Of a stretch of DNA of 64,000 nucleotides, positions 39,679-42,518 are shown piece after piece. A program made the position numbers and the translations under genes. The notes under the pieces were generated by a model, which made no database searches, had not been told where the DNA came from, and saw only the letters and a program-made list of their open reading frames with translations. This stretch comes from Methylacidiphilum caldifontis. Its GTDB lineage: Bacteria; Verrucomicrobiota; Verrucomicrobiia; Methylacidiphilales; Methylacidiphilaceae. The stretch is from positions 124,001-188,000 of the forward strand of contig NZ_CP065957.1 of assembly GCF_017310505.1 (NCBI RefSeq). The letters run 5' to 3'. The number at the start of each line of letters is the position of its first letter. Position 1 is the stretch's first letter.

Positions 39679-40446
39679 GTGCAGCATGAAGAAGTATTTC
39701 AGACTCCTGAAACATCTGAAGAATTTCAGTTAAGCTTTTTTGCAGATATTAAAAAGGGGTTTTCTCAAATATTCTCAGACCCTTGGTGGTGGATAAAAGT
39801 TTTAATAGGTGGCTTTCTCCTCATTAATCCTTTTTTATTAGCGCTGATCCCTAAAATAGGCTCATCATATGGTGGAGGAAAACTGCCCAGTGCTTTCTTG
39901 GGACTCCTCATTATTAATGTATGCACTTTCTGGTTTCCTCTTGGGTTTACTTTCGAGGTCTTGAGAAGGGCCAAAAATGGTAAACCAAAACAACTTCCAG
40001 AATGGAATCTTTCTCTATTTTGGAACTATGCTAGGGAAGGCGCAGCTAAGCTGACGATCGCTTTGACCACTCTTATATTTCCGGCAATTCTATGGATGGG
40101 CATTGTTTATTACATTTTTATCCAGCTTTTAGGGTTACCCATTGCTTTACTGTCCCTATTTGTTCCTCCCATCTTATGGTTTGTAATTCCTTTTTGTGGT
40201 GTGGCTTGTTGTCGATGGCTTGATGGAGTTAATGTTTTTGATTGTGCTTTAAATTATTCTGAAAACTTCAAACTCTTTTCTTTAGCCAAGGCAGATTATT
40301 TAATTGCTTCCGCTTTCCTCCTTGGAGTAAACGCCCTTACGATGGCCTTTTATTATACGATTCCCTTTGGAGCATTCTTTGGTCTTTGTCTGGTAGATAC
40401 TTGGTTTGGGCCTATTTATACAAAAACTGTAAAAAAAATAAATTGA
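39679..40446 (+). CDS. DUF4013-like membrane protein
   Basis: 255 residues with about six hydrophobic segments (for example FLGLLIINVCTFWFPLGFTF). Residues 45-130 resemble DUF4013 membrane proteins (WWWIKVLIGGFLLINPF, GFTFEVLRRAKNGKPKQLPE). Starts with GTG at 39679 after AAAGGAGAG, a good ribosome binding site. Function unknown. Confidence 0.72.
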   Translation: MQHEEVFQTPETSEEFQLSFFADIKKGFSQIFSDPWWWIKVLIGGFLLINPFLLALIPKIGSSYGGGKLPSAFLGLLIINVCTFWFPLGFTFEVLRRAKNGKPKQLPEWNLSLFWNYAREGAAKLTIALTTLIFPAILWMGIVYYIFIQLLGLPIALLSLFVPPILWFVIPFCGVACCRWLDGVNVFDCALNYSENFKLFSLAKADYLIASAFLLGVNALTMAFYYTIPFGAFFGLCLVDTWFGPIYTKTVKKIN

Positions 40447-40518: not shown

Positions 40519-41727
40519 ATGCAAAACACAGCCGTCATAGCCGATTCGATTTATTTGGATCATCAATCTGCCGCCCCTGTTTTTACAGAAGCCTTTGAAA
40601 TTTTAAAGCAATATTCTGTTGAACCTTTTTCTCCTACAAGCCTTCATCAACGAGGCATCATTTCTAAAAAAGTATTACAGCCAGCCCTAGAAATGATTGC
40701 TGCTTTTTTGGGGTGTGAGGAAAGCGAGTTGGTCTTTACGGGAGGGATTTGGGAAGCTGTTGTTCTTGGAATAGAGGGATTTTGGAGAAAAAACGCATTC
40801 AAAAATAAGCATATTTTAACAACTCCAATTGAACAAAAACCACTTTTGCTCCTTTTAGAGAGGCTCAAAAGAGAAGGGGCTCTTGTTAGCTATCTGCCCG
40901 TAGACAAAGAAGGATTCATCGATCCTCTATCTATTGAACAATTAGCTACTGATCAAACTGTTCTGTGTTGTGTACAGTGGGTTAACCCTGAAATAGGTAC
41001 TGTGCAAAATCTAGAGGCAATTGCTCATGTTTGCTTGAATAAGGGTATAACTTTATTTTGTGATGGTGCTTATGCGGGTGGTTGGATCCCTATTGATTTA
41101 AAACGACACCCTGTTTCTTTTCTCGCTATAAATCCCAATCAGTTTAATGGTCCAAAAGGCATAGGGATACTTTATGTTAAGAAGGGTATTAAAATAGAGC
41201 CGATCATTCCGGGTTTAAGTGGAGATTTTGGTTTTTGGGGGGGAACTGAAAACATTGCCGCAGTTTTGGCTACGGCAAAGGCTGCGGAAATCACTTCTCA
41301 AATATTTAAAGAAAAAGTAGAAAAAATCGGAGAGTTGCAGAAATATCTCTGGAATAACCTGCAAAGCTATATTCCTCTTATCGCCCTCAATGGGCCCAAA
41401 TTAGGTCCCAATCGGTCTGTTCAAAATTTGAATATAAGTCCCGAATATATTGGTGGAGAGTCACAAGTATTGAGTTGTGGTCTAAAAGGGGTTATGATCT
41501 CCAGTGGGCCCAGTTGTGTGGAGAGAAATTTAAGAATTTCTCATGTTTTCAAAGCTCTAGGATTAGGATACAACAGGGCTATGTCGAGTATAAGAATAAG
41601 CTTAGGAACCACGACAACAAAAGAGGAAATAGAAAGGTTTATAAAAATTTATAGCGAGGTAGTCTCTAAACTCAGAGAGATGTCTATAGGGTGGAAAAAA
41701 TTTCTTTCTACAAAAAAGGATCAATGA
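40519..41727 (+). CDS. Cysteine-desulfurase-like protein lacking the PLP lysine
   Basis: 402 residues, colinear over its full length with IscS/NifS. YLDHQSAAPV, WVNPEIGTVQNL, FNGPKGIGILYVKKG and SSIRISLGTTTTKEEIERF match. However the PLP Schiff-base Lys (usual S-x-H-K-x-Y-G-P-K-G) is Gln208 and its neighbour His is Asn207; the PLP-stacking His (TEHKA) is Gln106; and the phosphate-loop ATE is IWE. The catalytic-loop Cys333 (SSGPSC) remains. Classical desulfurase activity is therefore unlikely. The frame is intact and shows no decay. It is coupled by ATGA to the PAP2 gene. Confidence 0.88.
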   Translation: MQNTAVIADSIYLDHQSAAPVFTEAFEILKQYSVEPFSPTSLHQRGIISKKVLQPALEMIAAFLGCEESELVFTGGIWEAVVLGIEGFWRKNAFKNKHILTTPIEQKPLLLLLERLKREGALVSYLPVDKEGFIDPLSIEQLATDQTVLCCVQWVNPEIGTVQNLEAIAHVCLNKGITLFCDGAYAGGWIPIDLKRHPVSFLAINPNQFNGPKGIGILYVKKGIKIEPIIPGLSGDFGFWGGTENIAAVLATAKAAEITSQIFKEKVEKIGELQKYLWNNLQSYIPLIALNGPKLGPNRSVQNLNISPEYIGGESQVLSCGLKGVMISSGPSCVERNLRISHVFKALGLGYNRAMSSIRISLGTTTTKEEIERFIKIYSEVVSKLREMSIGWKKFLSTKKDQ

Positions 41728-42518
41728 AGAAGGAGTTTTTGTATATTTATGAGATATCAAAAGGCAAACTTTTGGGGGCTTGGAACAATTTCAAGGGTTG
41801 GAAAAGTTCTATAAAAATGAGTTTGCCTCTAATATGGCTTCTTTGTATCCTCATCGCTTTTCAGTTTGATATGCAATTTTACAGTTTTTTTTTAATAAAA
41901 GATGGGAAATTTTTACATATTTTAGCAGAAAAAATAAGTTATTGGGGAGACTTTCCCCAAGGCACAATCCCTTTATCCATAGGAATTTATTTAATAGGAT
42001 TACTGTTTAAAAAAAATAGAATAAAGGAAGCAGCCGTAGGATGCTTTTTTTCTGCCTTAATTGCAGGATTCCTTGTGGATATAGCTAGAGATACACTCGG
42101 CCGTCCACGACCCTCTGCTGATGTCAAGGAAACCCTAAAACAGTTAGGTTATATCCCTACGCCTATTGTGAATTTCCATAGAATACATCAAGGAGGTTCT
42201 TTTGTGGATGGTTTTTATGGAATGCACAATTTAAGCATGTTTCATGGTTTTCCTTCTGGACATGCAGCCACTTCTATGGCAACGGCCTCTAGTTTTTTGC
42301 GTAGTTTACCTTCTCTTTGCTATATATTGCTTTTTGGTGCCCTTTTAGTTTGTTGGTCAAGAATGGCATTAGGGAGGCACTATTTTTCGGATGTCATAGC
42401 TGGAGGGCTATTTGGGTTTTTTATAGGTTTTATTTTTAGTGGATCTGAAAATCAGGGTTTGCTCGGTTTTTTACAAAAACCGGAACAAAAGATAAATAAA
42501 ATAACAAATATTTTATAA
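41724..42518 (+). CDS. PAP2-family phosphatase
   Basis: About 264 residues with five or six membrane segments. All three acid-phosphatase motifs are present: RDTLGRPRPSAD, GFPSGHAATSMATA and SRMALGRHYFSDVIAG. Probably dephosphorylates undecaprenyl-diphosphate or another lipid phosphate. ATG at 41724 overlaps the stop of the preceding gene (ATGA). An upstream ATG at 41691 would extend into that gene and is less likely. Confidence 0.9.
   Translation: MKKEFLYIYEISKGKLLGAWNNFKGWKSSIKMSLPLIWLLCILIAFQFDMQFYSFFLIKDGKFLHILAEKISYWGDFPQGTIPLSIGIYLIGLLFKKNRIKEAAVGCFFSALIAGFLVDIARDTLGRPRPSADVKETLKQLGYIPTPIVNFHRIHQGGSFVDGFYGMHNLSMFHGFPSGHAATSMATASSFLRSLPSLCYILLFGALLVCWSRMALGRHYFSDVIAGGLFGFFIGFIFSGSENQGLLGFLQKPEQKINKITNIL

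Follow-up and report, generated by a model that had tools for sequence, protein, structure and literature searches.

A putative pseudo-cysteine desulfurase of Methylacidiphilum belongs to a lysine-less clade of Verrucomicrobiota linked to iron-sulfur cluster assembly

What can a cysteine desulfurase homolog do once the lysine that holds PLP has been replaced, and why is such a gene kept? This question is raised by a gene in a stretch of 64,000 nucleotides (here termed the window; positions 124,001 to 188,000 of contig NZ_CP065957.1) from the 2.25 Mb genome of Methylacidiphilum caldifontis (Methylacidiphilum, Verrucomicrobiota). The gene lies at 40519..41727 on the + strand of the window and runs from ATG to TGA with zero internal stops, encoding a lysine-less IscS-type protein of 402 aa. 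The Pfam model Aminotran_5 covers the protein from end to end (7e-44, 150.7 bits versus a gathering score of 21.5, profile positions 1-371 of 371). The NCBIfam models for NifS and IscS also match over the full length, with 272.5 and 243.3 bits, below their equivalog cut-offs of 530.75 and 643.2, respectively. An AlphaFold (AF2) model was obtained with a mean pLDDT of 87.2 and a pTM of 0.87, the low-confidence parts being the N-terminus, residues 231-243 and the cysteine loop 333-337. Structural alignment of this model (VIA-align) gave Z scores of 48-49 with E. coli IscS and human NFS1 and of 47 with Archaeoglobus fulgidus IscS. With an Aminotran_5 score above gathering and structural Z scores of 47-49 the protein is a member of the class V aminotransferase fold family, and the intact frame together with the three models matched over their whole length bears out the original prediction of a full-length cysteine desulfurase homolog.

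In a gap-free alignment with E. coli IscS, Gln208 (codon 41140..41142; this and all further codons on the + strand) stands where that enzyme has Lys206, its PLP Schiff-base lysine. The residue is part of the motif NPNQFNGPKG (residues 205-214, 41131..41160), the counterpart of SGHKIYGPKG, in which Asn205 stands for E. coli Ser203 and Asn207 for His205. Four further pocket residues are exchanged: Trp78 (40750..40752) is found at the position of Thr76 in the PLP phosphate site, Gln106 (40834..40836) at that of the PLP-stacking His104, Pro157 (40987..40989) at that of Asn155 and Tyr185 (41071..41073) at that of Gln183. Retained are Asp182 (41062..41064), which corresponds to Asp180 at the PLP ring nitrogen, Thr243 (E. 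coli Thr243), Arg359, the equivalent of the substrate carboxylate residue Arg354, and Cys333 (41515..41517), the equivalent of the persulfide-carrying Cys328 of the mobile loop. As judged by the features of a cysteine desulfurase, the protein thus lacks the Schiff-base lysine and possesses the active-site loop cysteine. The exchanges of Lys and His in the motif and their numbering, Gln106 for the stacking His, IWE in place of ATE at the phosphate site, and the intactness of Cys333 and the reading frame had all been read by eye in the original prediction, and the alignment agrees with it on each of these points.

Lys213 was considered as a displaced Schiff-base lysine and rejected, because it is part of the GPKG motif, whose lysine normal enzymes carry beside the Schiff-base lysine and Methylacidimicrobium-type homologs lack (GPVG). 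No substitute Schiff-base lysine aligned among 21 members of the clade described below, whose alignment has zero invariant lysine columns; an alignment placing another lysine such as Lys213 in the Schiff-base position, named beforehand as grounds for giving up the original prediction, did not turn up. The proposed check of whether Gln208 is fixed in orthologs had a clear outcome: all five Methylacidiphilum species carry NPNQFNGPKG with Gln208, the other four proteins being 69-75% identical to that of the window. Three unsaturated Methylacidiphilum pairs gave dN/dS values of 0.11-0.16, indicating that the gene is under constraint (purifying selection); the remaining values of 0.08-0.12 rest on saturated dS. 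Together with the presence of Gln208 in five species, these ratios uphold the claim that the lysine was lost under maintained selection.

The loss had been regarded as a peculiarity of one protein, and this view had to be given up. In a maximum-likelihood tree of 83 rows, 31 lysine-less rows fall on one side of a branch with 100/100 support, apart from all lysine-bearing homologs, so that the trait is clade-wide and sporadic loss of the lysine is ruled out. All but one of these relatives (30/31) stem from the order to which the window belongs; one member, L121, comes from another family of the same class. The stem leading to the window's own group is long, with 1.09 changes per column. At the lysine position the relatives have Arg, Gly, Gln or His and never Lys: relatives within the order, approximately 30-39% identical to the window protein, show SPHRFYGPKG (Lys to Arg), SPYRFGGPKG and similar motifs, and the sister genus in the window's family, which we take to be Methylacidimicrobium, has HFRGCGGPVG. 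One protein, L029 (G031:C3), is the sole member from family f8 with His in place of Arg (SPHHFYGPKG). Three f8 proteins (L018, L019 and L023) extend past the end of E. coli IscS with a conserved C-terminal tail (GKSFTQHAADxSGKPAH-like) that is absent in Methylacidiphilum.

The protein search covered 388 genomes of the phylum Verrucomicrobiota, in which the lysine is present in all matches read outside the order at E <= 1e-55. The same sample was scanned at the DNA level for GPKG sites without the lysine, which yielded one further true member, L121; of the other seven matches, six gave no IscS-type frame and the remaining one, L122, was already known as the member from genome G028. As the scan needs MGN as the codon preceding the GPKG block, Gln, Gly (GGN) and His variants would escape it. 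A scan of genome contigs gave a Methylacidiphilum record alone, with an ortholog 69% identical. Among the seven plasmid-record homologs that were read, all are lysine-bearing. A. fulgidus IscS is placed beside, but outside, the 31-row clade, the two standing on one side of a branch with a support of 70/21. In the literature searched, a bacterial clade of lysine-less IscS proteins was nowhere described. By its sequence, the protein of the window is a putative pseudo-cysteine desulfurase from one old lysine-less clade of Verrucomicrobiota, of which Methylacidiphilum appears to hold a late, more degraded case.

Residues were counted in 29 distinct lysine-less proteins and compared with 50 lysine-bearing homologs and paralogs. 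In the lysine-bearing set Lys206, Asn155, Gln183, Arg354, His104, Asp180 and Cys328 (E. coli numbering) are each present in 50/50. In the clade Lys206 is found in 0/29 (Arg in 19, Gly in 6, Gln in 3, His in 1), as are Asn155 and Gln183 (each 0/29); Arg354 persists in 4/29 and is lost in 25, and His104 persists in 19/29. Asp180 and Cys328 are both present in 29/29. These counts indicate that the chemistry residues were lost together while the cysteine was retained. Glu311 is invariant in the lysine-less clade as well; it is borne by helix 309-316, which in E. coli IscS contacts IscU (PMC2854127).

The gene neighborhoods of relatives point to the process in which such proteins may take part. In family f8, a gene for IscU (NifU_N E value approximately 1e-49, three cysteines, LPPVK motif) lies directly upstream of the lysine-less iscS gene in 12/12 genomes, with 111-244 bases between the matched parts. 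The operon holds the lysine-less copy alone in all 12 genomes, no lysine-bearing copy being found beside IscU, and lysine-bearing desulfurases are encoded elsewhere in the f8 genomes checked. Directly downstream follows Mrp, with the domains PF10609 (ParA) and PF01883 (FeS_assembly_P), in all six f8 neighborhoods read, and an Rrf2 or other helix-turn-helix regulator is close by in some of them. SufB/D was not found in 10/12 f8 genomes (G030-G039), was partial in G029 and complete in G040; the f8 genomes are mostly drafts, and four of the five with a completeness of 90% or more lack SufB/D. In G030-G039, IscU beside the lysine-less protein appears to be the sole recognized Fe-S scaffold. Mrp also follows the gene in family f4 (G005), with no adjacent IscU, and in family f25 (G375) the order is Rrf2, lysine-less IscS, Mrp and a SufT-like protein, with SufB/D approximately 11 kb away and no IscU found in the genome. 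Families f5 and f6 showed no Fe-S gene directly adjoining; most of the families f4, f5, f6, f8 and f25 are represented by draft genomes. Taking f8, f4 and f25 together, the commonest shared link is therefore Mrp, followed by IscU. In f4 and one f6 genome (L079, L080) an aspartokinase gene is found upstream of the lysine-less gene and in turn adjoins a gene for a PP-loop (LarE-like) ATPase on the other strand.

The surroundings in Methylacidiphilum are of another kind. Upstream lies a gene for a membrane protein of 255 aa without a Pfam or NCBIfam match (39679..40446, + strand), which was found in this position in 8 loci and in all three genera examined of the window's family. Downstream, a conserved PAP2 phosphatase gene (41724..42518, + strand; PF01569, 2.6e-20) starts with an ATG that overlaps the TGA of the lysine-less iscS gene as ATGA (41724-41727). 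The translational coupling to the phosphatase that had been proposed is supported, as the overlap is real and the same 4 bases recur in 2/3 fully read Methylacidimicrobium-type loci (L071, L073). The order of the three genes is kept in Methylacidiphilum and most loci of the sister genus. In the window genome no Fe-S gene adjoins the gene, these two being its neighbors, and no IscU was found, neither alongside nor elsewhere; the single NifU_N protein is encoded beside a SufS-type desulfurase. SUF is present, Mrp is encoded at 28.7 kb of the contig, approximately 136 kb from the lysine-less gene, and the genome has lysine-bearing paralogs (L002, L003 and L004). To judge from these arrangements, the gene has apparently moved in the window's family and IscU is gone. 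The same genome also contains a 282-aa desulfurase-like frame without mid-domain and loop Cys (L008, G000:C1:520742-521440) that keeps the Schiff-base lysine (AGRKLYAPKG), a degeneration of the reverse kind.

With moderate confidence we favor the explanation that the protein is a catalytically dead IscS, which probably gives its cysteine loop and docking surface to Fe-S cluster assembly or transfer, with another desulfurase making the sulfur, a division of labor for which A. fulgidus IscS serves as precedent. Since related bacteria carry the gene in Fe-S cluster assembly operons, it probably helps to build or hand over Fe-S clusters. The protein would be unable to form the PLP internal aldimine, and lysine loss should abolish desulfurase chemistry, because E. 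coli IscS K206A is without activity, with some PLP still bound; H104Q is likewise inactive (PMC9978102). PLP itself may still be bound in the clade, where Asp180 is invariant. What appears to be kept is the fold of IscS, its mobile loop with the cysteine, and the acidic helix by which E. coli IscS touches IscU. Ancestrally, the protein would have worked in a unit for Fe-S assembly together with IscU, with the P-loop Fe-S carrier Mrp or with both, its loop Cys serving either as a cluster ligand or as acceptor or relay of persulfide from a separate lysine-bearing desulfurase. For f8, operon structure and residues make docking combined with a Cys ligand or relay the simplest reading. For Methylacidiphilum, where IscU would have been lost with SUF present and the protein would persist under selection, we go one step further and infer from descent and the retained cysteine that it most likely still acts on Fe-S or persulfide, with Mrp or SufU as partner; as IscU and the operon linkage are lost there, the partner is an inferred one. 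The original suggestion of a scaffold, sulfur carrier or regulatory partner pointed in the right direction, and the operons of relatives make an Fe-S role much more specific than that. Arg359, kept in Methylacidiphilum, would count against a purely non-catalytic protein, which would not need this residue. The neighborhood in the window genome, which has no Fe-S gene beside the lysine-less one and Mrp far off, speaks against the favored role as well, as do those of families f5 and f6.

The main rival for Methylacidiphilum is that here and in the sister genus the protein left Fe-S metabolism and was co-opted to a membrane- or lipid-linked process together with the upstream membrane protein and PAP2. 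The conserved three-gene neighborhood with its ATGA overlap, the long Methylacidiphilum stem (1.09 changes per column) and the more degraded pocket (Trp78, Gln106, Tyr185, Asn207, Gln208) speak for such a change of function; the conservation of Cys333 and its surrounding loop points to persulfide or metal chemistry instead, and we consider co-option unlikely. IscS-family members are dimers. The protein could on this ground act as the regulatory subunit in a heterodimer and provide a lysine-bearing, active paralog with its cysteine loop or half-site, and the IscS-family fold and the presence of such paralogs in every genome checked are in keeping with this. However, the f8 IscU operon holds just the lysine-less copy in 12/12 genomes, with no lysine-bearing copy adjacent, and a heterodimer is given a low probability.

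It is quite improbable, too, that the protein is still an enzyme in which PLP or another ligand is held by the Asp180 equivalent without a Schiff base, for a slow or different reaction. Asp180 is invariant (29/29) and E. coli K206A retains some PLP, but that variant has no desulfurase activity (PMC9978102), the equivalents of Asn155 and Gln183 are gone in all members and that of His104 in a third, and in Methylacidiphilum the Thr of the phosphate site has become Trp78. The idea of a decaying pseudogene or sequencing artefact has the loss of catalytic residues as its sole support and can hardly be credited: the frame is open in five species with the same residue in all five, dN/dS is low (0.11-0.16) and Cys328 is retained throughout the clade, by which this explanation is refuted.

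The favored role as a catalytically dead Fe-S assembly partner can be taken further to a model that we put forward tentatively and with some doubt. In f8, the sole scaffold IscU may be tied to dead IscS and Mrp, sulfur production and docking being split between IscS-type paralogs, and in Methylacidiphilum the dead IscS may have outlived IscU and come to serve Mrp or SufU on its own as a relay of persulfide or clusters. If true, bacteria would here assemble Fe-S clusters with an architecture that has no catalytic desulfurase in the assembly complex. Lysine-less IscS proteins had earlier been met as single archaeal cases that could be dismissed as oddities; now a bacterial clade has the same loss. 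Its residue pattern separates the needs of lysine chemistry, where Lys, Asn and Gln are always lost, from those of work with an Fe-S partner, where Cys and Asp are kept. The contribution of IscS to cluster assembly beyond sulfur thereby becomes testable, partly in cultivable methanotrophs, and annotations as 'cysteine desulfurase' in such genomes, for instance among the five nifS genes listed for Methylacidiphilum fumariolicum SolV (PMC3404531), may include non-enzymes.

Among known systems, E. coli IscS resembles the window protein in its fold (Z 48-49, approximately 32-33% identity), cysteine loop, Asp180 and Thr243, and differs from it in Lys206, His104, Asn155, Gln183, His205 and Thr76, all of which are replaced in the latter. 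The best PDB sequence match is A. fulgidus IscS (4eb5, 4eb7, 4hvk; D199K mutant 4r5f), in which the lysine is likewise gone (Asp199), the cysteine is retained, and the equivalents of Gln183 and Arg354 are lost as well. This protein with Asp for Lys is reported to be without desulfurase activity, and its loop Cys to be a ligand of the [2Fe-2S] cluster on IscU (PMC7585200). In contrast to the Methylacidiphilum protein, it is archaeal, has Asp in place of Lys, keeps Asn155, His104 and Thr76 and operates with IscU, a scaffold of which type is missing from the window genome. For Methanosarcina acetivorans IscS1, also without the lysine, a mode of action like that of the A. fulgidus protein was suggested (PMC7585200); by its published description it is comparable to the window protein in being a lysine-less paralog beside lysine-bearing ones, as in Methylacidiphilum, and it is paired with IscU1. 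Finally, the f8 operon of IscU and lysine-less IscS resembles the MIS system, in which MisS and MisU are described as forming a minimal IscS-IscU pair outside a full ISC operon (PMC11559095, PMC12442378); MisS is described there as a cysteine desulfurase, whereas the proteins of our clade have lost the lysine and that of Methylacidiphilum has no IscU partner.
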